Virus record (IMG/VR): IMGVR_UViG_3300020202_000033
Coordinates: 1 to 44,132 of that record
Strand: one strand, 5' to 3'
DNA length: 44,132 nucleotides
Source of the DNA: a virus
Position numbers and translations under genes: made by a program. A model generated the notes under the pieces. That model searched no databases and had not been told where the DNA came from. It was given only the letters and a program-made list of their open reading frames with translations. Shown piece after piece: positions 23,485 through 44,132 of this stretch (within the stretch, counting starts at the first letter, position 1; each line of letters begins with the position of its first letter).

Positions 23485-23518
23485 GCAGCGCCATGCACCT
23501 ATGACGGTCCGTGAAAGG

Positions 23519-30333: not shown

Positions 30334-32748
30334 TTACGCGAAGAAGTAATCGGACCGCCGCAGCGAGTTCACATCCAAGCTGCCACTCGGCGGGACCGAA
30401 GGAATCGTTGCGCTGGGCCCAAGGTGGAGTTGGACCTCTTCGCGGAAGCGTTCGAGCAGGTTGTCGCTGAACATCTCCGCGTACACGTCCCGAAGCGTCG
30501 CCGCCATGAGCGGCGCGTCCACGCACGTGACTCCGTACGAGTCGTGGATCATCGAGAAGGACTCGATGCCACGCTCGCGCGCGAGGTTGACAGTCTTCGC
30601 CAGTGCTGCCGCATCCAGCGAATGCACGAAGTTGGGGCTGATGCCGTTGACTTGGCGACGGCGATCGAGCTTGTCGAGTTCTTCCCGCAGGCTGTGCTTG
30701 CGGACCGTGTCGCCTAGCACCGTCGTGATGCGGCAGGTCCGGTACGCGTGATACGCCTGCTTGACCGGGAACCCGCTCGGGCTCGTCCACCGGACCGGGA
30801 TGTTGGCCTCGTTGCAGAGCCGCGCCACCTGCTGGAGCCAGGACATGCAGGTCCGCGCCGACACCACCGTCTCCCCGATCGCGTCCCACACGAGCGACGC
30901 GAGGTAGAGGCACGGCTGCCACGAGTTGGGACCCCACGGCCGAACGCCGCGCGTGCTGGCCTCCGCGCGGTACCACTCCGTGACGTACCGCTGACAGGAG
31001 TACCGCGTCCCGCCGTACGGCAGGACCATCACGGGCCGCTTGGTCGCGGCACGCGGCAGCCGCCCGCCGACGAAGTCCAGCCACGCCTGAGAGACCGCGT
31101 CCCCACGCGCCACGAGCTTGGCCGTGACGAGGTCCGCGACGTCTTGGTAGATGTCGCGCGGCGCGTCCGAGGGCGTGCAGTTGGTCGCGGCGCCGCCGAT
31201 CGGATCGCGCAGCAGCAGGGAGAAGATTTGCAGCCCGTTGTTGCTGCCATCGAGCGCGACCGGCAGGCGGGTAAGGAAGGTCTCCCCGCGCGCGAGGGCG
31301 TCCTTGTATGCGCCCCACTCCAGGCAGAAGGCGAGGAACTCCCAGGGCTTCGAGGCGCCCTCCCACCAACGGTGTTCGAGCGGGTCGTGATGGACGGCGA
31401 GGATCTCGCTCTCGTGCAGGTAGACCCAGGCAAGGCGCTCGTCGAACGAGACCTTGTCCACGCCGAAGCAGTTCGCGCCGTGGATGCCGAGCCAGCGCAC
31501 GTGCTCCGGCGACGTCATCGGCCGGCCCTCGGCGAACCGCAGCAGCCCGCGCGCTTGCGACTGGCCCTGCGGTTGGAGGAAGTACGGGACCGGGTACAGC
31601 CGGCCGCGGAAATCCGCCTGCCACGGGAAGTAAAACGTCTCGCCCAGGAACTGCCTCGCCATGAAGAGCGTCTTCGCAGTCAGCAGGCGCTGGCTGCGGC
31701 AGGCCACGTTCGCCGCGTAGACACCGGCGGCGTCGCGACGCCACTGCTTGCGCGCGTCCTCGTCCTCGCCGATGTTGTCCGGCTTGGGCGGGAGCTTCGC
31801 GTCCTCGCGGCTGGCCATGTCGGCGACCGCGAGCCCGGCTTCCCAGCAGTGTTCCATGACCTGGAACACGTCGGGGTTGATCTCCCAGGCCGTGGCCTGC
31901 AACGTGTTGACCGCGTCGTAGACCTCCGGCATGTCGCACTCGGCGACCTCCGCTAGGTACCGGCGGTCGGGGCTCTTGATGAGCGGCTGCCGCCGCACGA
32001 TGTTGCTGTGGTATCCCCCGTCGAACGGGTTGTCCCAGCTCTGCGGAACGATCAGCGTCGGAAGGTAGAAGGGGAAAAGCGCCTGATGCTCTTCGTTCGA
32101 TTGCTCCAGCCAGCGGAGCGTGTCTTCGGTTGCGACGACGACATCCCGCGCTTTTCCCCCGTTCCCACAGTTACGGATCTCGATCAGGCCCGTAGCGTCC
32201 CGCAGCATCTCCAACAGCAGCGCGCCGACACGGAACTTGACGCGCTTGGTCCACGGCTCGAAGCCGAGTTCCGCCTTGTTCGACACGCCGCGGAAAACCT
32301 TCTTCCGATGACTCGTGCTCGACGCTTTCGTCTGCCGCTTGAGGCGCAGGAAGAGATTCTTGTCGTGCTCCAGGATGTACCGGCAGCGGGCCTCGTCCTC
32401 CATCGTGCGGCCGATGTGGTAGGCCGTATTCACGAAGCTCCGCTCCGCCGAGATCGAATCCAGGATCACCCGCGCAGCGAGAAGAGCAGTGACCGGGGCG
32501 CTGAGCTGTTGGATGTACGCGACCGCGACATGGCGCCGCCCGGGTCCGCCCGTCTCGGCAGTTTTGGCGAACGCCTCGATGGCGTCCGTCATCTTCCCAA
32601 CCGCCTCGCGAAGCAGATACCGGCCCGCGGCCGTAGTGCTTTCGCGGTGCTTCGCGCGGGCCTTGTTTGCCTTCGCCGCGTAGCGTTGCGATCCCAGCTC
32701 GACCATCAATTTCTCGATGGCCATCTGCTCCTCGGTGAAGTGGCGCAT
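30334..32748 (-). CDS. single-subunit DNA-directed RNA polymerase (T7 gp1-like), 804 aa
   Basis: All key residues align with T7: Asp500 in VALDGSNNGLQIF (T7 Asp537), Lys570 in ATKRPVMVLPYGG (Lys631) with Tyr578 (Tyr639), and Asp736 in MIHDSYGV (Asp812). The C-terminus YFFA matches the T7 FAFA foot. ATG 32748 was chosen because it overlaps the upstream stop (TGATG); a longer frame adds out-of-frame shadow sequence. It transcribes the phage's own genes. Its promoter sequence here is unknown. Shorter than T7 (883 aa), mainly at the N-terminus. Confidence 0.97.
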   Translation of the reverse strand: MRHFTEEQMAIEKLMVELGSQRYAAKANKARAKHRESTTAAGRYLLREAVGKMTDAIEAFAKTAETGGPGRRHVAVAYIQQLSAPVTALLAARVILDSISAERSFVNTAYHIGRTMEDEARCRYILEHDKNLFLRLKRQTKASSTSHRKKVFRGVSNKAELGFEPWTKRVKFRVGALLLEMLRDATGLIEIRNCGNGGKARDVVVATEDTLRWLEQSNEEHQALFPFYLPTLIVPQSWDNPFDGGYHSNIVRRQPLIKSPDRRYLAEVAECDMPEVYDAVNTLQATAWEINPDVFQVMEHCWEAGLAVADMASREDAKLPPKPDNIGEDEDARKQWRRDAAGVYAANVACRSQRLLTAKTLFMARQFLGETFYFPWQADFRGRLYPVPYFLQPQGQSQARGLLRFAEGRPMTSPEHVRWLGIHGANCFGVDKVSFDERLAWVYLHESEILAVHHDPLEHRWWEGASKPWEFLAFCLEWGAYKDALARGETFLTRLPVALDGSNNGLQIFSLLLRDPIGGAATNCTPSDAPRDIYQDVADLVTAKLVARGDAVSQAWLDFVGGRLPRAATKRPVMVLPYGGTRYSCQRYVTEWYRAEASTRGVRPWGPNSWQPCLYLASLVWDAIGETVVSARTCMSWLQQVARLCNEANIPVRWTSPSGFPVKQAYHAYRTCRITTVLGDTVRKHSLREELDKLDRRRQVNGISPNFVHSLDAAALAKTVNLARERGIESFSMIHDSYGVTCVDAPLMAATLRDVYAEMFSDNLLERFREEVQLHLGPSATIPSVPPSGSLDVNSLRRSDYFFA

Positions 32749-33275
32749 CAGAACAGCTCGTTGAAGCGCGCGAGGAACTTTTCCTTCGCCTTGAGCGGCT
32801 CCCAGCCGCTTGCGATGCGCCACGTGGCCGGCTTGTGGAGCAATCCCCACGTCTGCGGCGGATCCTTCATCAGGTCCCGCATCTCCGTAGCGAGGGCAAC
32901 CCCATCGGCCTCGCGGATGGCGGCGGCGTGATCCGACCAGTCGATCCCGTATTTGTCCCCGATGACGAGTTGGATCGCGCGCTCGATCTGCCGATAGAAC
33001 TGGAGTTCAGGAAGGTGCTTGATCGGCGTCGGCAGGTCCACGCAGTAGGCTTCGGCCGCGTCGTGGAGAAGCAGCGCCAGCGCGTGTTTCGGATCGCAGA
33101 TCGAGGACGTGAGAACGCTATGCTGCGCGACGCTGTAGAACTGATCTCCGTGCCCGCTGAATCGACACTGATGCGCGAGGGCGTGTGCGATGTCGCCGAT
33201 GCGGATGTCCTCGGCGCGCGGCTCGGTCGGGAAGAATTGCCCGCCGGAGTAGGTTTGCAGCCAGGGCTTCAACAC
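32748..33275 (-). CDS. HD-domain phosphohydrolase, 175 aa
   Basis: The HD signature is clear: an early His (QHS in YSVAQHSVL), the His-Asp pair in LALLLHDAAEAYCVDLPTPI and a distal Asp (IREADGVALATE). This is the common phage family of nucleotide hydrolases related to YfbR 5'-deoxynucleotidases. DatZ-type dATP hydrolases also use this fold, but nothing here proves that activity. The start is GTG 33275 with GGGGG upstream. It probably adjusts the nucleotide pool early in infection. Confidence 0.85.
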   Translation of the reverse strand: MLKPWLQTYSGGQFFPTEPRAEDIRIGDIAHALAHQCRFSGHGDQFYSVAQHSVLTSSICDPKHALALLLHDAAEAYCVDLPTPIKHLPELQFYRQIERAIQLVIGDKYGIDWSDHAAAIREADGVALATEMRDLMKDPPQTWGLLHKPATWRIASGWEPLKAKEKFLARFNELF

Positions 33276-33679: not shown

Positions 33680-33747
33680 TTCGGGCCGCTACAGCACCGC
33701 AAAACCGCCCGGAAACCCCATCCAGCGGCCACGCAGGGCCTGCGTTG

Positions 33748-33796
33748 CGGCCTCCGGAGCCGAAGGTTGTGGGTTCGAGTCCCACCGGGCGTACCA
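33748..33796 (+). other. candidate attP core: 3' half of a tRNA-Arg(CCG)
   Basis: The sequence reads as a tRNA from the anticodon stem to the CCA end: anticodon loop CTCCGGA (33752-33758, anticodon CCG), variable loop, perfect T arm GTGGG-TTCGAGT-CCCAC (33769-33785), acceptor 3' strand CGGGCGT, then ACCA. There is no D arm and no matching 5' acceptor strand, so it is not a gene. Pairing of the anticodon stem fails at its outermost pair (33747 with 33763), marking the likely left edge of host identity. A tyrosine recombinase lies 1 kb away. Integration would restore the host tRNA gene. Confidence 0.8.
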
Positions 33797-33821
33797 CTTA
33801 CAACGTGCTGTCGCTGCGGCA

Positions 33822-34525: not shown

Positions 34526-34881
34526 GCGACGACCTCGGCTACTACATCCTCGACAAGCGCGGCCGGCCTCGCCGCATCCGCGACGCCCGCCGCTGGGGCC
34601 GATGGATGGCGACCGCTGATCGCCGCGTCGATCGGACAACGATCGAGGGCTTCACGGTCTCCACGGTATTCCTTGGGATGGATCACAGTTTCGGCGAGCA
34701 ACTCCTGCCGGTCCTATACGAAACGATGGTATTCGGCCCCTCGAAGCGGGGCCGCGACTTCGCCATGCGCCGCTATTGCACGCGCGGTGCGGCCATCAAG
34801 GGGCACCACGAGATGGTCGCCGAGGTCCGCGCCGCGCTCGGTATTCCCCAAGAGAAGCACCATGAAACCCCCGAAGCGTAA
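34522..34881 (+). CDS. conserved phage protein of unknown function, 119 aa
   Basis: The core VSTVFLGMDHSFGEQLLPVL followed by YETMVFG and a C-terminal GHHEMVAEVRAALG belongs to a frequent phage family in which a VSTVFLGLDH-FG motif precedes LFETMVFG and a final GH-x-x-MV. Its function is unknown. ATG 34522 overlaps the upstream stop, and the 3' end overlaps the integrase start by 20 bases, so it is translated together with the integrase. Confidence 0.75.
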   Translation: MSDDLGYYILDKRGRPRRIRDARRWGRWMATADRRVDRTTIEGFTVSTVFLGMDHSFGEQLLPVLYETMVFGPSKRGRDFAMRRYCTRGAAIKGHHEMVAEVRAALGIPQEKHHETPEA

Positions 34882-35947
34882 GTTCACCGGCATCAAGCGC
34901 GGTTTTACCGGCGGCGCCTGGAAATGGCGCGCCTGCTTCAAGCTCGACGGCCGCCAGCTCGTCGGCCAGTACCGCGAGGAGCAGGCCGAAGCCTTCGCCG
35001 ACTACGAGCGCCTGCGCGAGAGTGGCGGGCAGGAACCCGTCGAAATTCGGACACTCGGGCAGGCCCTTGCCCGCGTCGAAGCGGACCTTCTGGAACGCGG
35101 AAAGGAAGGCGAAGCGCGGCGGAGCTTCAAGTCCCGGCGCGACTTCCTGCTCAGCTTTTGGGACGGCGAGAGCACCCTCGCGAAGATCGACGCCCGCGAG
35201 ATCGAGTGGATGATCGCGAAGGCGCAGGCCGCCGGGCGCCACGCGAATACCCTCGCGACGAAGGATCTCCCGCTGCTCGCCCGCTGCTACGTGGCGGCCG
35301 GACTGCCCAACCCGCTGATCGCGTTGCGCGAGGCCAAGCGGCTGCCGAAAAAGGTCAAGCCCGAGGTCGAATTCTTCACAGCGGACGAGGTCCGCGACGT
35401 CATCGCCCGGATCCGCGCCTACCCCGCGCGGGAGCAGGACCATCACGCGGACCTCTTCGAATTCATGCTCATGTCCGGCGTTCGGGCCAGCGAGCTGGGA
35501 CGGATCAAGGCGAGCGACGTCAACATGCGGGCGCGCACGATCCGCATCGACCCGAAGGTCGACGAGCAGCCGCGCAAGGCCCGTATCAGCGACCCGATGG
35601 TCCCCATCGTCAACCGCCTCGTCGACCGCGCGCGAGCGAAGGGCCGCGACGGCTTCCTTGTCCCGGACGGGATGAACTACATCGTCCGACTCTGCCAGCG
35701 GTGGCAGAAACGGATCGGCGAGCCGCGCCTATGCGGGCGCGTCCTACGGCACACGGCCGTCACGCTCTACCTGCAAGCCGGCGGCACGCTGCCGGAGGCC
35801 GCCGCCTTCGCCGGCCACGCGCTGATGACGACCACGAACCGCTATGCCCACGCGCTGCGGGACCGCGAGGGCGCGGGCGCAGAGCGGCTCGGGAAGCTGC
35901 TCAGGCGGGCCGCTTCCGGCGACGCCCCGCATCCGGCTGGCGGATGA
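34862..35947 (+). CDS. int: tyrosine recombinase / integrase 1, 361 aa
   Basis: The catalytic domain shows Arg208 (MSGVRASELGRIKASDV), Arg296 (GRVLRHTAVT), His319 (FAGHALMTTT) and Tyr328 (TNRYAH). The residue three before Arg296, normally His, is Arg293. The N-terminal 60 residues contain an AP2-like arm-binding region (KFTGIKRGFTGGAWKWRACF) and a SAM-like core-binding domain follows. It lies about 1 kb from the tRNA-like attP core and is the likely enzyme for it. Its 3' end converges with the excisionase-like gene, overlapping by 47 bases. Confidence 0.9.
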   Translation: MKPPKRKFTGIKRGFTGGAWKWRACFKLDGRQLVGQYREEQAEAFADYERLRESGGQEPVEIRTLGQALARVEADLLERGKEGEARRSFKSRRDFLLSFWDGESTLAKIDAREIEWMIAKAQAAGRHANTLATKDLPLLARCYVAAGLPNPLIALREAKRLPKKVKPEVEFFTADEVRDVIARIRAYPAREQDHHADLFEFMLMSGVRASELGRIKASDVNMRARTIRIDPKVDEQPRKARISDPMVPIVNRLVDRARAKGRDGFLVPDGMNYIVRLCQRWQKRIGEPRLCGRVLRHTAVTLYLQAGGTLPEAAAFAGHALMTTTNRYAHALRDREGAGAERLGKLLRRAASGDAPHPAGG

Positions 35948-36155
35948 CCTTCTCCTCGGGGGCGCCGGATGAGAGCGGGCGCTCGGCCCGCCGCGCGATC
36001 CAGTTGTCGAAGTCGTCCTTCGACACGGCGCGATGCCGGGGCGAGAAGCGATGCACCGTGACGCCATCGGCGAGGAGCTGTCCGACGAGGACGCGGACGC
36101 TGATCCCCATGCGGGCCGCGGCGGCGCGCAGGGGCACGTATTCGGGCAGGTTCAT
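35901..36155 (-). CDS. excisionase-like / helix-turn-helix DNA-binding protein, 84 aa
   Basis: The region EYVPLRAAAARMGISVRVLV followed by LADGVTVHRFSPRHRAVSKD resembles a winged helix-turn-helix of the MerR/excisionase type (helix, turn, helix, then a wing with a basic RFSPRHR strand). The C-terminus is basic. It is the last gene of the minus-strand integrase 2 operon and overlaps the end of integrase 1 convergently, so reading one gene makes antisense RNA to the other. A role in directionality is likely but inferred. Confidence 0.65.
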   Translation of the reverse strand: MNLPEYVPLRAAAARMGISVRVLVGQLLADGVTVHRFSPRHRAVSKDDFDNWIARRAERPLSSGAPEEKVIRQPDAGRRRKRPA

Positions 36156-36430
36156 CGACGGGGCTCCAACTCTTCCGAGGCGGCGCGCAGATTGAGCGCA
36201 GTCGAGCACTGCGGGCACTGATTCTGGGTGCCGGCGTAGTCGCCGCGCTTGCCGGTCGCGCCGCACAGCGTGCGGTGCTGCCCGGGCACGAAGTAGTGCG
36301 CGATGGTCGTGCCGGAGAGGTACCACCACCCGCTGACGGTGTTCGCCATGTCGTAGCTCCGTTGAAGGTGCGCCAGGGAGCGGCGCAAGACGTCGATGAT
36401 GCTCTTCGGGATGATCGGGTCGTCGATCAC
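36152..36430 (-). CDS. hypothetical protein with Cys pairs, 92 aa
   Basis: Starts MIDDPIIPKSIIDVLRRSLA and has a WWYLSGTTIAHYFVPGQ segment followed by Cys residues (RTLCGATGKR and NQCPQCSTA) that may bind zinc. The stop overlaps the start of the excisionase-like gene (ATGA), so the two are co-translated. No recognised family. Confidence 0.65.
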   Translation of the reverse strand: MIDDPIIPKSIIDVLRRSLAHLQRSYDMANTVSGWWYLSGTTIAHYFVPGQHRTLCGATGKRGDYAGTQNQCPQCSTALNLRAASEELEPRR

Positions 36431-36972
36431 TTGCTGCCTCGCAAGCTCGCAATGGCCAGATCCAGGCAGTCGCGGGAGTGCAGCAGCGTGGCGCTGAGGT
36501 CGATCTCTGGAATCGTGTGGCGGACCGACGAAATGGCTTGCACGGCGAGCGCCATCTGTTCGCGCTGCTGACGCAGGAGCGCGTCAACCCGTTCCTGCGC
36601 GTACAGCTCCGCCACCATGACCGCATGCTGCACGTACTCCTCCGGCGCGCAGGTCAGCGCGGCCGTCATGCGATCCGCGAGCGTCAGCCCGGCAAGCGTC
36701 GGGCCAGGGGCCGGCGCTTCCTTCGGCGCCTTGCGTTGGTCCAGGTTGATCTGCTGGCAGACTGACGGCCGCCCGGCTTTCAGCCACTCAGCGACGAGGT
36801 AGCCTAGCTCTTCGCTCGGCGCGGTGCCGACATCCGCGCTGCGCGCGCGGACCCAGTACTTGAGGCCCTCGGGATAGCGGTCCGGGGGCGTATCGCTGTA
36901 GCGCAGCCACTCGGCGTGCGCCGGCTCGTCAAGATCGTGGGGCAGGGTTGAGGCGGGGGCGGCGTTGTTCAT
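36427..36972 (-). CDS. hypothetical protein, 181 aa
   Basis: ATG 36972 is the likely start. The N-terminal half is polar with LSxTPPDRYPEGLKYWVRAR-like spacing. The C-terminal half is helical (YVQHAVMVAELYAQERVDAL, then LRQQREQMALAVQAI), probably a coiled coil. The end overlaps the next gene by four bases. No enzyme motif or signal peptide is visible. Function is unknown. Confidence 0.65.
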   Translation of the reverse strand: MNNAAPASTLPHDLDEPAHAEWLRYSDTPPDRYPEGLKYWVRARSADVGTAPSEELGYLVAEWLKAGRPSVCQQINLDQRKAPKEAPAPGPTLAGLTLADRMTAALTCAPEEYVQHAVMVAELYAQERVDALLRQQREQMALAVQAISSVRHTIPEIDLSATLLHSRDCLDLAIASLRGSK

Positions 36973-37162
36973 CGTGTTGGGGCTGGACTTGAGCCTCCAC
37001 AGCGGCATCGGCCGGAAGATGCTGGACCGCCCAGCGCCGCGCCTGCCACTCGTGCGTGAACGGCCCGGCACGGTAGATGCCATGATGGAAAACAGCCCAG
37101 CTCCGAGGTTCGCTCGTAGCCGGGCTGCCCCAAGGACTCCCACCACACACGGGACCGATCAC
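36929..37162 (-). CDS. small hypothetical protein, up to 77 aa
   Basis: The central segment SWAVFHHGIYRAGPFTHEWQ followed by ARRWAVQHLP looks like a compact alpha/beta fold seen in other small phage proteins, including a similar segment in the 60-aa protein at 34343. The start is uncertain (GTG 37162 or GTG 37150). It overlaps the next gene by 44 bases. Function unknown. Confidence 0.5.
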   Translation of the reverse strand: MIGPVCGGSPWGSPATSEPRSWAVFHHGIYRAGPFTHEWQARRWAVQHLPADAAVEAQVQPQHDEQRRPRLNPAPRS

Positions 37163-37198
37163 ACGCTCAGCATCGGACGATCGGCCCCGGGACTTGAG

Positions 37199-37450
37199 CT
37201 AGACGGAGCGCTGCGCCAGCCAGAACAGCGTGCCGGTGAGCGCGACGCCGATCCCCGCCCATGCAGCGGCGACGAGGACGAGCGCGCGACCGGACCGCTC
37301 AAGGGCCTTCTCGATGCGCACTACAAGCGCCGTGTTCTGCTCGCGCCAAGCGTCTTGCAGACTGCGCAGCGTGGCTAGGTCGGACTGGATCGCGCGGTGC
37401 AGCGACACGCCTTCAAGGTTCTCTCCCTCGGTCGGCTTCAAGAGTTGCAT
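37199..37450 (-). CDS. coiled-coil plus membrane-anchor protein, 83 aa
   Basis: ATG 37450 has GAGGTAG upstream. The first 55 residues are helical and charged (HRAIQSDLATLRSLQDAWRE, then VVRIEKALERSG); a single membrane helix follows (ALVLVAAAWAGIGVALTGTL, about residues 56-77). The arrangement resembles the XhlA-like holin of this phage. In the lysogeny-linked operon it might act at the membrane, for example in exclusion. No direct evidence. Confidence 0.7.
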   Translation of the reverse strand: MQLLKPTEGENLEGVSLHRAIQSDLATLRSLQDAWREQNTALVVRIEKALERSGRALVLVAAAWAGIGVALTGTLFWLAQRSV

Positions 37451-37453
37451 GGG

Positions 37454-37570
37454 CTACCTCGTCAAGCAGTAGAGGACGATCAACAGCCCCGCCACGAAGG
37501 CGAAGCCACGGAACTCCTCTTCGGCGCCGATCGAGTAGCACTTGAGCAAGAAGCGGTTCAGAAGGTTCAT
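37454..37570 (-). CDS. small membrane protein, 38 aa
   Basis: ATG 37570 overlaps the stop of the upstream gene (ATGA), and AAGGAG lies 11 bases before it. The product has one hydrophobic segment at the C-terminal end (FAFVAGLLIVLYCLT). It ends three bases before the next gene starts. The tight packing supports translation. No function is recognised. Confidence 0.55.
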   Translation of the reverse strand: MNLLNRFLLKCYSIGAEEEFRGFAFVAGLLIVLYCLTR

Positions 37571-37854
37571 CGGCTCACGTACTCCTTGGCCGGGTCGCCA
37601 CTCGGCCGACGCCGCCCGCTGCTCGGGTGACGCATCCAGCCGTCCGGCTCGCCCCGGCCGTCCCAGGTGAAGCAGGCAGCGACCGCTACCTCCGCATCGT
37701 CGTATCACCAACCGTCGTCGTAGAAGGATGACGACACCGAGCCAATCACAAGCCTCGCGCGGTGGAACGTGAGTTCGTACACCCACAGCCCGCGGTCCGG
37801 CGACAAGTCCCGCAAGCGCCGGAATGCAAGGAGCCCCTCGAACTCACCCGGCAT
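37567..37854 (-). pseudogene. phage protein interrupted by one in-frame TGA (49 + 45 codons)
   Basis: From ATG 37854 the frame reads 49 codons with a RGLWVYELTFHRARLVIGSV core to FYDDGW, then TGA (37705-37707), then continues in the same frame for 45 codons (YDDAEVAVAACFTWDGRGEP, later GRRRPSGDPAKEYVSR) to a TGA at 37567. Both halves look like parts of one known phage family in which the GDPAKEY end follows a DDGW-(C/W)-Y region. The TGA replaces a Cys or Trp codon. TGA is a normal stop elsewhere here. So this is a nonsense mutation, stop readthrough, or a sequencing error. Confidence 0.75.
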
Positions 37855-38038
37855 GAGGATTCGGGCCCTTCCACTGCCAGCAGTCGTCGTGATAGACCAG
37901 CTCGGTACCGCAACGGTCGCAGGTCTTCTCCTCCCCGTCCTGCGGTTCCTTCCCAGCGCTGGATAGTGCCAGGAAGGCGAAGCAACAGCGGAACAGCCCG
38001 CCCGGCCGATAGCGGAACGGGACGCGCTCCAGCTCCAT
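37844..38038 (-). CDS. zinc-ribbon protein, 64 aa
   Basis: ATG 38038 overlaps the integrase 2 stop (TGATG) and has GGAGG upstream. A hydrophobic patch near residues 15-27 (LFRCCFAFLALSS) is followed by a zinc knuckle, CDRCGTELVYHDDCWQW. The 3' end overlaps the interrupted gene by 11 bases. It may bind nucleic acid or a protein partner of the recombinase. The family is not recognised. Confidence 0.7.
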   Translation of the reverse strand: MELERVPFRYRPGGLFRCCFAFLALSSAGKEPQDGEEKTCDRCGTELVYHDDCWQWKGPNPHAG

Positions 38039-38895
38039 CAGCCCGCCTCCAGCAGCTTGCGCGCTGCCGCGAGGTCGACGTCGGACGCGTGCGCATAGCG
38101 CATGGTCGTGGCGACGCGCGCGTGCCCCATCCATCGCTGCACGGTCGGGATGGAGGCGCCACGCTGGACGAGCCGGGTTGCGCAGGTGTGACGCAGGGCG
38201 TGCGGGACGAACTCCGGGTCGTCCTCCAGACCGAGCGCCGCGCGTGCGGCCGCGAAATGTGTTTGAAAGGTGCGGGCCGGCATGTGCGCGAAGGGCCCGC
38301 GGGCCGAGCCTCGCACGGTCGACATCCCGACCAGCTCGCGCCGCGCTCGGTCCGTGAGTGGCACCGTCCGCGGTTTCCCGCCCTTGGTCTTCGGCAGGCG
38401 GATGAACGCCTTGGCCGGCGGGTACAGCGTGATGTCGGACCACGGCCTCCCCAACAACTCAGCAAGGCGGAGGCCGGTGTCCAACAGGACGATGCAGATG
38501 GCGCGCGAGTCCGACAAGTGAGCACGTTCTAGCCAGTCCAGCAGTGCCGCCTCTTCGACCTCGTCGAGCACGCGTTCGCGCGGCTCGGGCTCCACAAGGT
38601 GCGGAATGTGGATCCGCTTCTCGACGTGCCCTCCGTTCAGCGCGTGCGTCAGCATCAGGCTCAGCGCGCCGAGCTTGCGGTTGACCGTGCTCGTCGCGTT
38701 GCCCTTCCGCTTGAGCGTGAGCACCAGCCGCTGGACGTCGTCCGCGGTGAGCTTCGCCACAGGCATCTCGGGGCCGAGCAGCTCGACCACCTGCGCCGAG
38801 TTGCGCATGGCGGTGTCCTCCGCCTTGCTGCCGCGCCACGATAGCTCGTAGGTGCGCAGCCGCAGGTCGGCCAGGGTCATCGGTGTGGGCTTCAT
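38038..38895 (-). CDS. tyrosine recombinase / integrase 2, 285 aa
   Basis: Complete catalytic set: Arg143 (DTGLRLAELLG), Lys171 (PKTKGGKPRTV), His232 and Arg235 (PHALRHTCAT), His258 (WMGHARVATT) and Tyr267 (TMRYAHA). The N-terminus is a short core-binding SAM-like domain with no arm-binding domain, as in XerC/D-like and simple phage enzymes. ATG 38895 lies at the predicted transcription start. It is clearly different from integrase 1. Its own attachment site is not identified. First gene of the minus-strand operon. Confidence 0.9.
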   Translation of the reverse strand: MKPTPMTLADLRLRTYELSWRGSKAEDTAMRNSAQVVELLGPEMPVAKLTADDVQRLVLTLKRKGNATSTVNRKLGALSLMLTHALNGGHVEKRIHIPHLVEPEPRERVLDEVEEAALLDWLERAHLSDSRAICIVLLDTGLRLAELLGRPWSDITLYPPAKAFIRLPKTKGGKPRTVPLTDRARRELVGMSTVRGSARGPFAHMPARTFQTHFAAARAALGLEDDPEFVPHALRHTCATRLVQRGASIPTVQRWMGHARVATTMRYAHASDVDLAAARKLLEAG

Positions 38896-38901
38896 GCCAT
38901 C

Positions 38902-38930
38902 ACCGTAGCGCGCGTGGCGCGAGAGTGCAA
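38902..38930 (-). promoter_or_regulatory. sigma70-like promoter of the integrase 2 operon, leaderless
   Basis: On the minus strand: TTGCAC (38930-38925), 17-base spacer, TACGGT (38907-38902). The integrase ATG (38895) is the seventh base downstream of the -10 box, the usual start point, so the mRNA would begin at the AUG with no ribosome site. The -35 box sits inside a perfect palindrome (38917-38939), a likely operator. Confidence 0.55.
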
Positions 38931-38939
38931 GTCTCGCGC
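38917..38939. promoter_or_regulatory. palindromic operator candidate 1
   Basis: GCGCGAGA, 7-base spacer GTGCAAG, TCTCGCGC: a perfect 8-bp inverted repeat over the -35 box of the integrase 2 promoter. A near-identical palindrome lies at 39452-39476 before the DUF932 gene. Repetition at two promoters suggests one regulator controls both. Confidence 0.6.
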
Positions 38940-39104
38940 GTGGGAAGAGGACCGCCGGGCACGCCGCTGCTCGTTCGCGGGACACCACTCCTAGCTGCGC
39001 GCGCCCGTCCCTTGGCGCAGCGCCACTACACCGTTCCCCCTCGGTGCGCGACAGCGCCCCGGCGGTCCGCGGTGTGTGTCGGCTAGCTAGCCGGGCGAAC
39101 TGGA

Positions 39105-39174
39105 GGAAAAGGCAGGAGCCGGCCCCATCAGGAAGGAGAGCCGGCCCCTGCCACACACACAAGGCTGCGAGCGT
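39105..39174 (-). ncRNA. candidate small antisense RNA with a GU-rich tail
   Basis: A minus-strand promoter (39207-39179) would start a transcript near 39174 that runs into an intrinsic terminator at 39152-39107, giving about 70 nt. Its 5' tail of about 20 nt contains GCCUUGUGUGUGUGG. This is exactly complementary over 14 nt (CACACACACAAGGC) to the leaders of the DUF932 gene and the 208-aa gene, covering their AAGG. The form is like that of GcvB, whose GU-rich region binds CA-rich targets. No coding capacity is evident. Expression is unproven; the plus-strand copy could instead be a leader relic. Confidence 0.45.
39107..39152 (-). terminator. intrinsic terminator on the minus strand
   Basis: GGCAGG-A-GCCGGC at 39111-39123 pairs with GCCGGC-C-CCTGCC at 39140-39152, 12 base pairs with one mismatch and a 16-base loop. 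On the minus strand it is followed by TTTT (39110-39107). There is no T-run on the plus side. It closes the candidate small RNA, and no minus-strand gene lies just upstream to need it otherwise. Confidence 0.65.
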
Positions 39175-39178
39175 CCTT

Positions 39179-39207
39179 ATAGTACCCGGCCCTTGCACCC
39201 CGGGCAA
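39179..39207 (-). promoter_or_regulatory. sigma70-like promoter of the candidate small RNA
   Basis: On the minus strand: TTGCCC (39207-39202), exactly 17 bases, TACTAT (39184-39179). The match is good for a GC-rich genome. Transcription would start near 39174 and end at the hairpin about 65 bases on. The plus strand here also reads TATAGT (39178-39183), so a plus-strand promoter cannot be excluded, but it lacks a -35 box. Confidence 0.45.
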
Positions 39208-39216
39208 GCCGCCTCG

Positions 39217-39242
39217 ATCAGAGCGGCTAATCAGAGCGGCTA
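39217..39242. repeat. 13-bp tandem direct repeat
   Basis: ATCAGAGCGGCTA occurs twice without a gap (39217-39229 and 39230-39242) in the gene-free region before the DUF932 operon. It could be a protein-binding repeat or the result of slippage. No other copy was seen. Confidence 0.6.
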
Positions 39243-39356
39243 ACCGGCGCGCGCGGGCGCGCTGGCGGGCGTGGGCGCGCAGGCGCGGGCACGCGCGTCC
39301 GGGCGTGCGCAGGCCCGCGTGGGTGCGGGCGTGGGCGGGCGCGCATGCGCGCGCGA
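39243..39356. other. very GC-rich low-complexity tract in the gap 38896-39537
   Basis: About 110 bases made almost only of G and C with many GCGC and GGGCG units and alternating purine-pyrimidine runs, which can adopt unusual structures such as Z-DNA. Frames that cross it give only Arg/Ala/Gly-rich nonsense. The 640-base gap around it (38896-39537) holds two promoters, two palindromes, the small-RNA candidate and this tract, and no convincing gene. Confidence 0.5.
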
Positions 39357-39451
39357 GTACCACTACGGCGGCGCGCGGGACGGAAGGAACGCGCTTTTCC
39401 TGCTCTCCGCCGATTGCCAGTGCCGATCCGTTTCCCGCTACTGGCGGAGAC

Positions 39452-39476
39452 GGCGCGAGAGTGCTAGTCTTGCGCC
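39452..39476. promoter_or_regulatory. palindromic operator candidate 2 with extended -10
   Basis: GGCGCGAGA, spacer GTGCTAG, TCTTGCGCC: a 9-bp inverted repeat with one mismatch, matching the palindrome at 38917-38939. Its centre reads TGCTAGTCT on the plus strand, a plausible extended -10 promoter for the DUF932 gene 60 bases downstream. A repressor bound here would cover the promoter. The -35 region is poor. Confidence 0.5.
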
Positions 39477-39510
39477 ACGGTCGCGCGCACTCCGCGCGGG
39501 GCCGGCAGTC

Positions 39511-39530
39511 ACACACACACACACACAAGG
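39511..39530 (+). promoter_or_regulatory. (AC)8-AAGG leader of the DUF932 gene
   Basis: Eight AC units followed by AAGG, then CAACCCA and the ATG at 39538. The AAGG is the only ribosome-site candidate. The identical (AC)8AAGGCAA block precedes the gene at 40676. CA repeats near the start codon are known to raise translation in E. coli. The block is complementary to the tail of the candidate small RNA. Confidence 0.7.
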
Positions 39531-39537
39531 CAACCCA

Positions 39538-40557
39538 ATGGCTCACGAGATCACTTCTACGGACGGCATGGTACTGGCGGGCGCGCCCGCTTGGCACGGG
39601 CTCGGAACGGTCGTCGCGCAGGCGCCGTCCACGGTCGGCGCGCTTGAGATCGCGGGCCTCGGCTGGCACGTGGAGAAATGGCCGATCCGCGCGCACGGCG
39701 AAGGCGCCCGCGACGGGCTGGTCTTGGACGCAACGTCGCACGTTGCGACGGTCCGCTCCGACACTCGCACGGTTCTCGGCGTCGTCGGCGAGGACTACTC
39801 GCCGTTGCAGAATCGCGAGCTGGCCGAATTGATCGACTCACTCGCGGCGGAGGGCGCGATCCCGCGCGCGGAGTCGGCCGGCTCATTGCGCGGAGGTAGG
39901 AACGTGTTTTTCCTGATCCAAACGGCGAGTTTTGCCTTGTGCGGAGACGACGACGTTCAAGCGTTTACGCTGTTCGCCAATGCGCACGATGGCACGGCGT
40001 GTTTCCGCGCGTTCGGAACGTCGGTCCGCGTCTGCTGCAAGAACACGCTAAACGCGGCGCTTCGTGCGGGAGAGCGGAGCGGAGTCAAACTCCGCCATAC
40101 CGGCGACCTTTCGGCCCGCGTCCGCGCCGCCAAAGGCGCGCTTGGGATCCTCGGGAAGCGCGCGGCCGAGTTCCAAGAAGCGGCCCGCAGGCTCGCGGCG
40201 GCGCCGATCCGGCGCGAAGGGCTCGAATCGTTCTTCGCGGCCGTCTACCAGCGTGCCTACGGGCCGATCCCGGTCCGCCCGACGACGGCCGTGGAAGAAC
40301 GGGCGCGCGACAAGGCGGCCCGCATCATCGGCCAGTGGACGGCCAACATGGAGAGCCCGCGGCAAACGAGGTTCAACACGCGTGGCACGATGTGGGCTGC
40401 GCTGCAATCCGTGACGGATTGGGCAGACCACGCTCGCACGGTCCGTACGTCGTCGCTGGAGCGCGACGCGAAGGCGGCGCGAGTGCATTCCAATCTGTTC
40501 GGCTCGTCCGCGGAGTTCAAGGCGGACGCGCTCGAATTGGCACTAGTGGCGGTTTGA
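39538..40557 (+). CDS. DUF932 domain protein, 339 aa
   Basis: Typical DUF932 (phage/plasmid TIGR03299-like) features: an N-terminal APAWHGLGTVV, then VVGEDYSPLQNRELAELIDS, the central GGRNVFFLIQTASF, and RVCCKNTLNAALRAG. The biochemical role of the family is not established; members are frequent on plasmids and phages. ATG 39538 follows the (AC)8-AAGG leader; a longer frame upstream crosses low-complexity DNA and is rejected. A hairpin lies just after the gene. Confidence 0.9.
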   Translation: MAHEITSTDGMVLAGAPAWHGLGTVVAQAPSTVGALEIAGLGWHVEKWPIRAHGEGARDGLVLDATSHVATVRSDTRTVLGVVGEDYSPLQNRELAELIDSLAAEGAIPRAESAGSLRGGRNVFFLIQTASFALCGDDDVQAFTLFANAHDGTACFRAFGTSVRVCCKNTLNAALRAGERSGVKLRHTGDLSARVRAAKGALGILGKRAAEFQEAARRLAAAPIRREGLESFFAAVYQRAYGPIPVRPTTAVEERARDKAARIIGQWTANMESPRQTRFNTRGTMWAALQSVTDWADHARTVRTSSLERDAKAARVHSNLFGSSAEFKADALELALVAV

Positions 40558-40569
40558 CGCCGAAACGCG

Positions 40570-40591
40570 CGGGCCGCTACAGTGCGGCCCG
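40570..40591 (+). terminator. hairpin after the DUF932 gene, possible weak terminator
   Basis: CGGGCCGC (40570-40577), loop TACAGT, GCGGCCCG (40584-40591): a perfect 8-bp stem followed by TTGCG rather than a U-run. It may pause or partly stop transcription, or protect the upstream mRNA. The loop also reads as a -10 box 18 bases after TTGACG (40554-40559), so a promoter here is possible. Confidence 0.45.
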
Positions 40592-40648
40592 TTGCGTCTC
40601 CGGGTAGCTCCCGGGCTGAGGAGGCTAGGCACGGTCGCGCCGTGCGAG

Positions 40649-40668
40649 ACACACACACACACACAAGG
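40649..40668 (+). promoter_or_regulatory. (AC)8-AAGG leader of the 208-aa gene
   Basis: Same (AC)8AAGGCAA block as before the DUF932 gene, followed by AGCA and the ATG at 40676. A small hairpin (GCACGG-TCGCG-CCGTGC, 40630-40646) lies just before it. The block is conserved between two unrelated genes over 1 kb apart while the flanking DNA differs, so it is likely to be functional. Confidence 0.7.
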
Positions 40669-40675
40669 CAAAGCA

Positions 40676-41302
40676 ATGGGACAGTATTGGATGGTCGTCA
40701 ATCTGGATAAGCGCGAGTTTGTCTGTCCGCACAAACTCGGCGCGGGGCTGAAGCTTCGGGAACAACTCGCGGCGCATCCTGGAACGGGCGCCGCGCTTCT
40801 CATCCTCTGCGCGGCGCAACGCGAGAAGCGCGGCGGAGGAGACTTTTATCTACGTGAGAACTGGCACGGGCCGGAACGCAAGTTCCCGGAGCACAACACG
40901 ACGCCGGGCCCGATGCCGGACGGACTGAGCGCGGAAGGCGTGGCCGAGCCTTACCCGACGCTCGCGGCCCGCACGATCGGACGATGGGCGGGCGACCGTA
41001 TCGCGCTCGTCGGCGACTACGCGGAGGATGCGGACCTCGCGCCGGAGCACAACGCGAGCACGATCTACGAGAAGTGCTCGGAGGAGACGGAGATCGTCTG
41101 GTCCCGCAAGAAGGCGGGCGCGTTGTTCCAGGACGCGACCGGCGGTCCGCATCACGGCATGTACGCGCACTCGCGCGTCGTCCGCCCGGCGGAGTTCCGC
41201 GACGTGTCGGACGACGTTGCGGCCGTGATCGAGCACGAACTACACGGGCGCTTCGCGGGCGACGGCTGGCGCGAGTGGAAACAGGCGGAGCGTGCCTTGT
41301 GA
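40676..41302 (+). CDS. uncharacterised conserved protein (GQYWMVVNLDKRE family), 208 aa
   Basis: Starts GQYWMVVNLDKREFVCPHKL, the signature opening of a widely distributed uncharacterised family. It has LAARTIGRWAGDRIALVGDY in the middle, also conserved there, and NASTIYEKCSEE after it. No catalytic motif is known. ATG 40676 follows the second (AC)8 leader. The stop overlaps the next start (GTGA). First gene of a five-gene operon of small proteins. Confidence 0.8.
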   Translation: MGQYWMVVNLDKREFVCPHKLGAGLKLREQLAAHPGTGAALLILCAAQREKRGGGDFYLRENWHGPERKFPEHNTTPGPMPDGLSAEGVAEPYPTLAARTIGRWAGDRIALVGDYAEDADLAPEHNASTIYEKCSEETEIVWSRKKAGALFQDATGGPHHGMYAHSRVVRPAEFRDVSDDVAAVIEHELHGRFAGDGWREWKQAERAL

Positions 41303-41481
41303 GCGTCGCCATTGAGAATCACGGGACCGTCGCGCTCGTCCGCCCACTGGACGACGACGCGCGCGCTTGGCTGGACGAGCATACCGCCGGCACATGGTGG
41401 GCGGGCGCGCTCGTCGTCGAGCCGCGCTACGTGGACGATCTCTTGTCCGGCTTCTGCGCGGACGGAGGCACGGTGCGATGA
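41299..41481 (+). CDS. small conserved phage/plasmid protein, 60 aa
   Basis: GTG 41299 overlaps the upstream stop (GTGA). The sequence VAIENHGTVALVRPLDDDAR and AGALVVEPRYVDDLLSGFCA belongs to a common short family of phages and integrative elements with an EPRYV-x-DL-x-x-G motif. Function is unknown. Such proteins often lie in small accessory operons like this one. Confidence 0.75.
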   Translation: MSVAIENHGTVALVRPLDDDARAWLDEHTAGTWWAGALVVEPRYVDDLLSGFCADGGTVR

Positions 41482-41588
41482 GCGAACGAATCGAGCGCGC
41501 GATCTACTGGCTGCTACTGGCACTCTTCGCGACGGTCGCGACGGTGCTACAGTGGCGCGGAGTGCAACGGCGGAGGATGCGACGATGA
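41478..41588 (+). CDS. small membrane protein, 36 aa
   Basis: ATG 41478 overlaps the upstream stop (ATGA) and its own stop overlaps the next ATG. The product has one membrane helix (AIYWLLLALFATVATVLQW) and a strongly basic C-terminus (RRRMRR), predicting the C-terminus in the cytoplasm. The coupled overlaps on both sides support expression. Function unknown. Confidence 0.65.
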   Translation: MSERIERAIYWLLLALFATVATVLQWRGVQRRRMRR

Positions 41589-41821
41589 ACCGATGGCAAC
41601 GGATCGAATTTCAAGACTACTTGCGCGCTTGCACGGATGCGCAAGTGCTCGGCGTGCTCCACAAGGAACGCGAGGCGGACCGCGAGGAGTACGTAGAGCT
41701 GGCAGAGATCGAGTGCGAGCGTCGCGGGCTCGATCCGCGGCCCGGGCCGATCGAGTGTGCCCACTGCGGACAGGCCAACACCCGGACCGACGACTGCGGA
41801 TGCTGGGAACGTCCCCGATGA
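41585..41821 (+). CDS. zinc-ribbon protein, 78 aa
   Basis: The N-terminal 45 residues are helical and acidic (ACTDAQVLGVLHKEREADRE). The C-terminus is a zinc knuckle, CAHCGQANTRTDDCGCW. ATG 41585 overlaps the previous stop and its stop overlaps the next start. It may bind RNA, DNA or the neighbouring zinc protein. The family is not recognised. Confidence 0.7.
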   Translation: MNRWQRIEFQDYLRACTDAQVLGVLHKEREADREEYVELAEIECERRGLDPRPGPIECAHCGQANTRTDDCGCWERPR

Positions 41822-42126
41822 ACCCGTGCGTCCACTGTGGCGCCCCGTGCGAGGCACTGGGCGAGGATCACTGCGGCAAGTGCTACCGGCGGCTTGGAGT
41901 GCAACCTCACCCGATGGCCCGCGCAATGATCGCGGACGCATGCGAGGCAGATCGGCTCGGCTTGACGTCCGAAGCGGCGGAGGTTGCGGGCGAGCTGCGC
42001 ACGGCGCCCGCCGTCCCGCTGCGCAAGTGCGCCGGCTGCGGCGCGGCCGTGACGCCGGAAAGCTGGCATCGGCTAGCCTCCGGTTGGCTCCTATGCGGCG
42101 CATGCTACTGGAGCGGTCCGCGCTAG
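41818..42126 (+). CDS. double zinc-ribbon protein, 102 aa
   Basis: Two zinc ribbons: CVHCGAPCEALGEDHCGKC at residues 4-22 and CAGCGAAVTPESWHRL followed by CGAC near residues 70-95, joined by a helical linker. It is the last gene of the (AC)8-leader operon. Its domain order recalls nucleic-acid-binding adaptor proteins, but no specific function is known. Confidence 0.7.
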   Translation: MNPCVHCGAPCEALGEDHCGKCYRRLGVQPHPMARAMIADACEADRLGLTSEAAEVAGELRTAPAVPLRKCAGCGAAVTPESWHRLASGWLLCGACYWSGPR

Positions 42127-42147
42127 CTTCCGCTCGCGCCCTTCCAT

Positions 42148-42182
42148 GCGGCCCGGCTCTCCCGTGCGGAGTGTCGGGCCGC
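42148..42182 (+). terminator. hairpin after the plus-strand operon, possible terminator
   Basis: GCGGCCCG (42148-42155) pairs with CGGGCCGC (42175-42182) across a 19-base loop, 22 bases after the last gene of the operon. It lacks a U-run, so termination would be weak or Rho-dependent. Confidence 0.4.
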
Positions 42183-42384
42183 TGCGCTTGGATGCGCAAG
42201 GGCGCGCAGTGTGGAGCACGGGCCGGCAGTGGAAGGCAGAGGCTGGCAGAGCGTGGCAGAGGCGAGGACCGCCTAGGATCGCGCAGGACGCGTCCGAGTC
42301 GAGTTTGACCTGATACCCTCGGAACCCGTCCGGACGCAAGGCGCGCAAGCCTGCGCAGCGGAGGAGGCAACGGCGAAAGCGCAC

Positions 42385-42470
42385 AGGGTAGCAAAGGCAA
42401 GCGAGCGCGATGCTCGCGAGCTAGCTACCCTGCCGGGCCGCAGCGTGGCGCGGGATACGCTATCCCGCGC
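42385..42470. other. structured inverted repeats in the gap 42127-42891
   Basis: Two strong structures stand side by side. The first is AGGGTAGC (42385-42392) with GCTACCCT (42424-42431), enclosing an inner GCGAGC/GCTCGC hairpin. The second is the perfect 10-bp repeat GCGCGGGATA/TATCCCGCGC (42448-42470) with a 3-base loop. The 765-base gap holds no convincing gene. It may be a replication origin, an attachment site for integrase 2, or a structured RNA. Confidence 0.45.
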
Positions 42471-42545
42471 AAGTGCAGCCGTTGTAGGCACTTAGGACGA
42501 TCTGCCGACGTTGCCCTCATTCTCAACGCGGCCGCGCGCCCGCGC

Positions 42546-42573
42546 TTGAAGGTCGCGCGCGCGAGGCTAAGTC
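42546..42573 (+). promoter_or_regulatory. weak sigma70-like promoter candidate
   Basis: TTGAAG (42546-42551), 16-base spacer, TAAGTC (42568-42573). It would yield an RNA of about 230 nt ending at the strong terminator at 42755-42812, without a clear open frame. Weak evidence, but it would explain why a strong terminator lies there. Confidence 0.3.
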
Positions 42574-42754
42574 CAGATCGGCAAAGCACTTACGGCGATT
42601 GCCTCGCGCGCGCCCTTATCCGCGCGCACGCGTGTTCCTGATGCCCCGCCGGGGGGGATCGGACAAACCTTCACGTTGGTGCAGGCGCTCAGATTTTTCT
42701 GGCAAAACCTCCGGGGGCGCCCTGTAGTCCACTGCGCAACGGGAGATGTCCTGC

Positions 42755-42812
42755 CGGCCCGCCGTGGGAGCTTCGACTTGAGCCGGAGCGTTGACCACGG
42801 CGGGCCGCTTTT
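42755..42812 (+). terminator. strong intrinsic terminator upstream of the secreted-protein gene
   Basis: A perfect 13-bp stem: 42755-42767 (CGGCCCGCCGTGG) pairs with 42795-42807, loop of 27 bases, followed by CTTTTCTCC (T-run 42809-42812). It ends any plus-strand transcript coming from the gap or from the operon upstream and isolates the secreted-protein gene. Confidence 0.8.
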
Positions 42813-42817
42813 CTCCG

Positions 42818-42846
42818 TTGCGGCTCCGGTAGTCCAGGGGTAGCGT
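42818..42846 (+). promoter_or_regulatory. sigma70-like promoter of the secreted-protein gene
   Basis: TTGCGG (42818-42823), exactly 17 bases, TAGCGT (42841-42846). It begins six bases after the T-run of the preceding terminator. Transcription would start near 42853, giving a leader of about 40 nt that contains a GGGCCC-TC-GGGCCC repeat and a GGAGA ribosome site. Confidence 0.5.
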
Positions 42847-42891
42847 CGAAGACGTCCGGGCCCTCGGGCCCACTACCACGGAGAACGACAG

Positions 42892-43665
42892 ATGCTCAAG
42901 CTCCTGCTCCCCCTCGTCCTGGCCACCCTCGCCCTCCCCGCCTCTGCTCAAAACACCTGGACCATCGACTACGGCGATCCGGCTGGGACGGGCACGGCGA
43001 CGACGCACATCGAGGTCGCGTACTACGACGGCCAAGGCAAGCTCCAGAAGAAGACCATCGGAGCCGCGTGCAGCTTCAACCCGAGCTTCACGCCGGCCAT
43101 GAAGCGCGAGGCGATGCAGAGCGCGATCAGCGCGGCAGCGAACGACCCGGCGAACACGGTCGGTGGGCAGCCCCTGATCGACACGGCCGGACTCGGCGAC
43201 GTGATGAACGTGGCTCCGCACGGCGACAACCCGTCGCACTTCACGGAGGCCAAGGTCAAGAAGGTCTCGACGAGCGATCAGAAGACCGGCGAGACGGACT
43301 CCATCACGAAGCCGGCGGGCTCGGGCCCAGGGCTCGGAGCGGTCGGCGTGGACGGAAACGTGCGCGGCTTCGCGGCGGCGACGACCGGGATGCAGAGCAG
43401 GGACCCGCAGGCGCTGCACTGGCAATCGCACTTCTACGTGCAGACCAACATGGGGTCGATCGACGTGCCGCTGCACAACGGGATGAGCCGGCTCGCCCTG
43501 CTCGAAGAGGTCCGAGCGGGCATCGTCTCGCTGGGCGGCGTGGCATGGCTCGACACGGATCGCGAGGTCGTGCTCGTCCTGCTCGACGGGGCGCCGATGA
43601 AGAGCCTGGGCGCCGGCTCGACGGATGACCTCTGCGCGGCTACCGTGGACGTGCTGGCCCCGTAG
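42892..43665 (+). CDS. secreted protein with Sec signal peptide, 257 aa (moron)
   Basis: Residues 1-19 are a classical signal peptide (MLKLLLPLVLATLALPASA, cleavage before Gln20). The mature part is Gly/Thr/Asp-rich, with GTGTATTHIEVAYYDGQGKL near its start and HWQSHFYVQTNMGSIDVPLH plus a DTDREVVLVLLDG stretch near the end. No catalytic motif is recognised. It has its own promoter and is bounded by intrinsic terminators, the usual build of a moron expressed from a prophage. It could alter the host surface or environment. GGAGA precedes ATG 42892. Confidence 0.8.
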   Translation: MLKLLLPLVLATLALPASAQNTWTIDYGDPAGTGTATTHIEVAYYDGQGKLQKKTIGAACSFNPSFTPAMKREAMQSAISAAANDPANTVGGQPLIDTAGLGDVMNVAPHGDNPSHFTEAKVKKVSTSDQKTGETDSITKPAGSGPGLGAVGVDGNVRGFAAATTGMQSRDPQALHWQSHFYVQTNMGSIDVPLHNGMSRLALLEEVRAGIVSLGGVAWLDTDREVVLVLLDGAPMKSLGAGSTDDLCAATVDVLAP

Positions 43666-43695
43666 CGGGCCGGTCGTTCTTTCCTGCTTGCAGGC

Positions 43696-43739
43696 CCGCC
43701 CTCCCCACCATGCTTCGGGCTCTCAGGGGAGGGCGGTTT
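43696..43739 (+). terminator. intrinsic terminator after the secreted-protein gene
   Basis: A perfect 11-bp stem, CCGCCCTCCCC (43696-43706) with GGGGAGGGCGG (43726-43736), loop of 19 bases, then TTTC. It lies 30 bases after the stop codon and separates this gene from the zinc-finger gene at 43786. Confidence 0.8.
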
Positions 43740-43785
43740 CACATCTGGCCGAGCTGCGCGCCCATCGCGCGCGGGAGGAGGGACG

Positions 43786-44132
43786 GTGAGCGAGCGCGAC
43801 TGCCTCATTTGCGGCCGGCGATTCTCGTCGCTGATGGACCGCGACATTCACTCGCACCTGGAGCACGCGACCCTGGCCGGATCGACGATCGCCCCCGAGT
43901 CCCGAGCGGGCGCGCAGGCGGGAGCGGTCGAGAGAGCGCTGGACAAACTCCACGAGTTTGTCGAGCCGACGCCGCTGCGGGCGCGCGCGGCTCTCAAGCC
44001 CATGATCGCCGCCGCCCGCGCCGAGCACGCGGCGCTGCGGGGCGCCCTGGAGCAGATCATCGAGAACTACGACGCGCGCGTAGGGGTTCGTGGGCACCAT
44101 CTCGGATGCGACTGCGGCGGCACGCGAGACGG
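43786..44132 (+). CDS. C2H2 zinc-finger-like protein, 5' part (continues at base 44)
   Basis: GTG 43786 follows a very strong ribosome site (GGAGGAGGG). The N-terminus carries a C2H2-type finger, CLICGRRFSSLMDRDIHSHL then Glu-His (residues 6-27), nearly the same as the finger in the 75-aa protein at 2513. A helical Ala-rich region follows (AGAVERALDKLHEFVEP, then AALKPMIAAARAEHAALRG). The frame crosses the contig junction and ends at base 125, giving 142 aa. Probably nucleic-acid or protein binding; unproven. Confidence 0.8.
   Translation, partial: MSERDCLICGRRFSSLMDRDIHSHLEHATLAGSTIAPESRAGAQAGAVERALDKLHEFVEPTPLRARAALKPMIAAARAEHAALRGALEQIIENYDARVGVRGHHLGCDCGGTRD
44090..44132. repeat. 43-bp terminal direct repeat (right copy)
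   Basis: Identical to bases 1-43. Joining the two copies restores an intact open frame, so the true genome length is about 44,089 bases if this is an assembly overlap. Confidence 0.95.

Follow-up and report, generated by a model that had tools for sequence, protein, structure and literature searches.

A phage genome in which the same AC-rich leader precedes two transcription units, while a shorter copy of it is found antisense to a GU-rich element on the minus strand, raises the question of whether the phage encodes a small RNA directed against its own leaders, as had been proposed in a preliminary description of this DNA. The whole stretch analysed, referred to as the window, has 44,132 bases (IMGVR_UViG_3300020202_000033) and corresponds to a T7-like phage genome with 67% G+C, whose ends carry a 43-nt exact direct repeat. 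Besides a single-subunit RNA polymerase, it contains genes for primase-helicase, DNA polymerase A, head-tail connector, tail proteins and a T7-type terminase. Two integrases are also present, which is unusual within a single T7-like phage. The landmarks outside the locus itself are:

30334-32850, minus strand: single-subunit RNA polymerase
33725-33797: tRNA-Arg-like 3' half with CCA, near one tyrosine integrase (attP-like part at about 33750-33797)
34862-35947, plus strand: tyrosine integrase 1
38038-38895, minus strand: tyrosine integrase 2 (int)

Among GenBank phages the nearest RNA polymerases, 38-39% identical, were those of Rhizobium phage Pasto and Desulfovibrio phage ProddE, with that of Pseudomonas phage LUZ100 slightly lower, and these three phages are likewise annotated with integrases. 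The tRNA-Arg-like half is probably attP. No exact genome match to the 46-nt tRNA-like 3' half was obtained, and a relaxed version of the pattern led to one Acidobacteria MAG contig, with 3 mismatches; this perhaps points to Acidobacteriota as the host, and is only a guess. No T7-like RNA polymerase was found in 193 genomes of the guessed host class in a search done without a positive control, and peptide-pattern searches of IMG/VR gave no close relatives of the DUF932, 40676 and RNA polymerase proteins. A tRNA-Ala (anticodon CGC; 23517-23605, minus strand) was observed just upstream of the head-tail connector gene.

The leaders and the genes that follow them are:

39511-39537, plus strand: leader 1, (AC)8 followed by AAGG (39527-39530) and a 7-nt spacer to the ATG of the DUF932 gene
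39538-40557, plus strand: target gene 1, encoding a DUF932 / TIGR03299 phage/plasmid-like protein of 339 aa (Pfam PF06067, TIGR03299, phrog_1221)
40554-40583, plus strand: promoter-like site TTGACG-N18-TACAGT, before the five-gene operon (9/12 matches)
40649-40675, plus strand: leader 2, (AC)8 followed by AAGG (40665-40668) and a 7-nt spacer to the ATG of the first operon gene
40676-41302, 41299-41481, 41478-41588, 41585-41821 and 41818-42126, plus strand: five genes of the target operon

In agreement with the preliminary description, (AC)8AAGGCAA was found at 39511-39533 and 40649-40671, ahead of the ATG codons of 39538 and 40676, along with a shorter third copy, (AC)4AAGGC, at 39153-39165; the five genes behind leader 2 are also real, neighbouring genes overlapping by 4 nt throughout 40676-42126. 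The sequence ACACACACAAGG is present exactly three times in the window, the mean in shuffled sequences being 0.09 even with one mismatch, and 14 nt (CACACACACAAGGC) are the same in all three copies, each of which is directly preceded by a GC-rich hairpin on the plus strand. The promoter-like site before the operon was the only one reaching the 9/12 threshold in 36000-44132. Comparisons with Pfam, TIGR and phrog found no family for the proteins of the operon, and the first of them (40676) had no homologues in phages, plasmids or 396 genomes, its predicted structure being uninformative (pLDDT 33). Two further features were observed around the leaders: a 24-nt near-palindrome, GGCGCGAGAGTGC(A/T)AGTCT(C/T)GCGC, of which int and the DUF932 gene each have a copy upstream (38916-38939 and 39452-39475), likely forming an operator pair for a phage repressor, and a 120-nt stretch of low-complexity GGGCG/GCGCG words between the minus-strand unit and leader 1 (39240-39360).

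ACA motifs before the Shine-Dalgarno sequence are proven enhancers, and the small RNA GcvB silences them through its GU-rich R1 region (PMC3879156). Both window leaders have the layout of such enhancers, with (AC)8 immediately before AAGG at a 7-nt spacing. The pattern (AC)6AAGG-N3..9-ATG was found in 33 IMG/VR contigs with 26 distinct N-termini, the ATG being located 6-9 nt after AAGG in 30 of the 33, while the control with AGT replacing ATG was found in 2 contigs that share one sequence, and the control with (GT)6AAGG and ATG in 1 contig. This difference indicates that AC beside a Shine-Dalgarno sequence is a recurrent phage leader, best read as an ACA-type translation enhancer. As a host trait the leader was discarded, with 3 matches versus 3 control matches in 396 Acidobacteriota genomes. 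Phage contigs whose flanks are identical differ in how many AC units they carry (27/18 in L059/L071, 10/9 in L062/L068 and 7/6 in L072/L082); AC repeats of phage leaders are thus hypervariable microsatellites directly at the ribosome-binding site. Exact (AC)5AAGGCA occurred elsewhere in IMG/VR in 43 stretches, with no clear leader among them, and Pasto (L047) carries (AC)5AAGGC at 609-623, in the untranslated early region of this closest named relative, with no start codon or terminator. When 24 whole AC-leader records (1.4 Mb) were inspected, an ATG was located within 3-10 nt of 26 of their 28 (AC)4AAGG sites, and at 11 nt for one more.

The minus-strand unit that contains the third copy is made up of the following elements:

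39179-39207, minus strand: promoter-like site TTGCCC-N17-TACTAT (TTGCCC 39207-39202, TACTAT 39184-39179; 8/12 matches)
39107-39173, minus strand: candidate antisense RNA of about 67 nt, with a 5' segment, the GU element and the terminator (predicted start point)
39151-39165, minus strand: GU pairing element GCCTTGTGTGTGTGG, 14 nt of it complementary to both leaders including AAGG
39107-39152, minus strand: intrinsic terminator (hairpin 39152-39111, TTTT 39110-39107), a 16-bp stem with no mismatch, G-U pairs included, and a 10-nt loop

A compact unit with a promoter-like site, a GU tail, a hairpin and TTTT is therefore present as had been described, with some amendments to its parts. The stem, given previously as 12 bp, extends to 16 bp when G-U pairs are counted. 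Of the promoter-terminator pair, the terminator stands up well, being the strongest in the window and directly abutting the GU element, whereas the promoter is weak, since sites of 8/12 quality number 23 in the window. The tail of about 20 nt is present in the sequence, but it is not predicted to be open: for the likely start sites, the 5' segment forms a small hairpin (-3.8 to -6.6 kcal/mol) that partly covers the GU run. No gene lies upstream of the unit on the minus strand, and Rfam gave no match at the gathering threshold in the region, nor any up to E = 1 in 38880-40720. The unit is located upstream of both leaders, more than 300 nt from leader 1 and 1.4 kb from leader 2, and overlaps neither target.

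The perfect 14-nt pairing between tail and leaders proposed earlier was borne out, extending in each leader across AC and AAGG. When all 40-nt segments of the genome outside the antisense strands of the leaders were ranked by complementarity to the two leaders, the unit had a mean of 14.0 and the next best 10.5, so that it stands out from every other part of the genome (0 of 29,235 other segments as good). The predicted energies of joint folding with the leaders were -19.5 and -19.4 kcal/mol, compared with -4.1 +/- 3.0 for 400 random partners (minimum -13.3), and the terminator was retained in the predicted joint fold with either leader. By a simple, structure-blind duplex score the two targets were not set apart from other start regions of this GC-rich genome, that of gene 21898 scoring equally, and the case thus rests on contiguous pairing and joint folding.

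An orphan unit of this kind was found in one of the 24 AC-leader records, that of phage G555 (IMGVR_UViG_3300038701_000611, L217), which had been fetched solely for its AC leader. G555 is a T7-like phage that encodes an integrase and shares its gene order with the window, showing 34% identity in the RNA polymerase (over 824 aa), 40% in the connector, 33-38% in tail proteins and 28% in the integrase. At 19654, on the other strand, it carries the same 15 letters as the window GU element (GCCTTGTGTGTGTGG) followed by ATGG, a perfect stem (12-14 bp) and CTTTC. The early region of G555 has three AC-led genes, besides a fourth gene whose leader has decayed; pairing of the unit with the leaders of the three extends over 13, 11 and 13 nt, none of 15,393 other segments being as good, and its GU element is mostly unpaired in the prediction (0.76-1.0). 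The unit immediately follows a late gene, between those for the scaffold and the major head and on their strand, and is not adjacent to int. Other observations in this genome were a tRNA-Ile just upstream of the major head gene, a tRNA-Leu beside the integrase, and a tandem array of about nine CCTTGAGGTG copies that precedes the early genes, at about 43100-43200.

A second case was provided by L139, L140 and G604, T7-like phages with 42% G+C and an integrase. In L139 and L140 about ten leaders on early genes, with no Shine-Dalgarno sequence, end in ACACACAAACACACTATG, and one element, TATATAGTGTGTTTG plus a terminator, lies behind late genes. Across the L139 group this appears as AACTTTGTTTGTGTTATATAGTGTGTTTG and a terminator with loop ATTGTGTGTTTT, behind the terminase and one further gene. 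Here ATAGTGTGTTTG and CAAACACACTAT are exactly complementary, and the match takes in two letters of the start codon, the first and the second; leaders and element differ in sequence from those of the window, yet match each other. The L139 segment was top-ranked for leader complementarity (0 of 19,771 others as good), and GTGTGTTTG is found on the strand of the element only at the element itself in the L139 and L140 records. The L139 element immediately follows the late gene on the same strand and is not adjacent to int. In the G604 homologue the terminator and its GU loop are retained while the 5' part has drifted, 79 segments being as good; including the terminator loop it came top by a small margin (8.75 versus 8.5), so that support from G604 for matched pairing is weak at best. 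It was also observed that nearly all early genes of L139, L140, L146 and L158 are AC-led, lack a Shine-Dalgarno sequence and have leaders ending in ACACACTATG. In AP013544, whose RNA polymerase is 43% identical to that of L139, the half examined had neither several AC leaders nor a GU unit, and most of about 50 T7-like records searched whole had neither leader nor unit.

The elements of the window, G555 and L139 thus each match the leader type of their own phage: several mRNAs are paired, and both partners have changed in match between lineages, as expected of a trans-acting small RNA. The co-variation of tail and leaders, suggested as a check in the preliminary description, was thus seen between lineages; searches for a close relative of the window phage gave none, which prevented tracing of the unit inside its own lineage. 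The finding of matched leader and GU-terminator pairs in two other lineages makes the antisense RNA reading better supported. The searches that led to both lineages were shaped by the window (through the leader in the case of G555, through the polymerase and a scan for the two elements in that of L139), and the ranks of the units are for that reason more telling than their prevalence. The IMG/VR records may moreover be fragments.

Other explanations for the locus have to be weighed against these data. Since AC with a Shine-Dalgarno sequence recurs alone in many phages, the leaders can be explained with no antisense RNA, as stand-alone translation enhancers, the third copy then being the relic leader of a lost gene. 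Nearly all phages with such leaders indeed lack an antisense copy, and the plus-strand hairpin before all three window copies would fit a relic. However, the third copy is followed by neither a start codon nor a usable reading frame, its hairpin has a T run on the minus side that makes it the best terminator of the window, and the arrangement of GU element plus terminator was found again in G555 and the L139 group, all of which leaves a relic with no regulatory RNA as an unlikely explanation. It seems quite improbable that the minus-strand promoter and terminator are an attenuated leader of int, where most transcripts would stop and some read on, complementarity to the AC leaders being secondary. 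On this strand int follows at a distance of 210 nt, and the site at 39207 is the sole minus-strand promoter-like site (8/12) between int and the DUF932 gene, but the palindrome at 38916-38939 is located just upstream of int, which may start there, this reading offers no explanation for a 14-nt match with two leaders, and the unit is not beside int in G555 and L139.

The leaders could also be bait or targets for host GU-rich small RNAs of the GcvB type, the phage unit being no regulator. There is precedent in that GcvB binds CA-rich sites via its GU-rich region and the phage mimic AgvB captures GcvB (PMC3879156, PMC4104026). AC leaders are no trait of Acidobacteriota, perhaps the host group, according to the genome counts given above; furthermore, the best complement of the leaders sits in the phage itself, and we regard this explanation as very improbable. 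As for an origin of the third copy by chance or by slippage of the AC microsatellite, the length variation of AC tracts between otherwise identical phages would agree with slippage, which does not generate the shared AAGGC. Chance is countered by the low expectation in shuffled sequences, and the place of the copy between promoter and terminator and its recurrence in other lineages would have to be coincidence, so that such an origin is hardly credible.

The reading that we favour, with a probability of roughly two in three, is that the window unit encodes a GU-type antisense RNA for its AC leaders. The 14-nt pairing, the joint folding and the recurrence in two T7-like lineages speak for the phage-encoded trans-acting RNA that had been postulated, while the weak promoter and the predicted partial folding of the tail speak against it. 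The open AC tract of each leader would act as an ACA-type enhancer joined to the Shine-Dalgarno sequence, favouring translation initiation. The minus-strand unit (39207-39107), presumably transcribed from its weak promoter, would give rise to an RNA of about 67 nt ending at the intrinsic terminator, and its GU element would pair over 14 nt with both leaders, masking enhancer and AAGG, so that one RNA would lower translation of the DUF932 gene and the five-gene operon together. An RNA lying on the AC tract and on the Shine-Dalgarno sequence or the start codon could block initiation on several mRNAs at once. Judging from its position, in the G555 and L139 lineages the RNA may be the end of a late transcript, and early genes would go off as late genes come on. 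The timing could correspond to a shut-off after the early phase or to maintenance of the lysogen: the location at the late-gene end in two other lineages suggests early-gene shut-off, the location between int and the DUF932 gene in the window makes a role in lysogeny possible, and the former appears at least as likely.

Among known systems, the candidate would probably belong with trans-acting base-pairing RNAs in the style of GcvB. It resembles GcvB in that the R1 GU-rich element of the latter pairs with AC/CA-rich enhancers at the ribosome-binding sites of several mRNAs (PMC3879156), and both window leaders have CA-rich sequence at this site. It differs in being phage-encoded and about 67 nt long, versus about 200 for GcvB, in having no match to the Rfam family (RF00022), in the position of the GU element directly against the terminator and in its apparent targets, which are of the phage only. 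AgvB, an anti-sRNA of Escherichia coli O157, is also a phage-encoded RNA with AC/GU pairing (PMC4104026), but its side of the pairing is AC and it captures a small RNA of the host, whereas the window RNA would carry the GU side and have phage mRNAs as targets. OOP of lambda (77 nt) and sar of P22 (68/69 nt), phage antisense RNAs that set the lysis-lysogeny decision, are similarly short and, by pairing with mRNAs of the phage, influence a developmental choice (PMC12197685); unlike them, the window unit has no overlap with its targets, and one RNA would reach two operons through a common leader sequence. A non-coding antisense RNA has been reported in LUZ100, an integrase-bearing T7-like phage with temperate features (PMC10134795), but it is opposite structural genes, and LUZ100 has neither AC leaders nor a GU unit. 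In the open-access literature searched, with partial coverage, we found no description of the arrangement of AC leaders with a GU element and terminator.

More tentatively, and on comparative sequence grounds that fall somewhat short of making it the probable case, integrase-bearing T7-like phages may have repeatedly evolved an AC-led early regulon shut off jointly by one GU-rich RNA set against a terminator, often at the end of a late gene, with leader and RNA drifting in step and each lineage having its own matched code. T7-like phages are thought to time the order of gene expression by transcription. If this arrangement is real, a T7-like branch would also use one small RNA against a whole set of early or lysogeny genes. 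It would also represent a simple and portable multi-gene off-switch, written in the GcvB-like pairing language of enteric bacteria, and would help explain the presence of length-hypervariable AC-repeat leaders at the starts of a number of phage genes.
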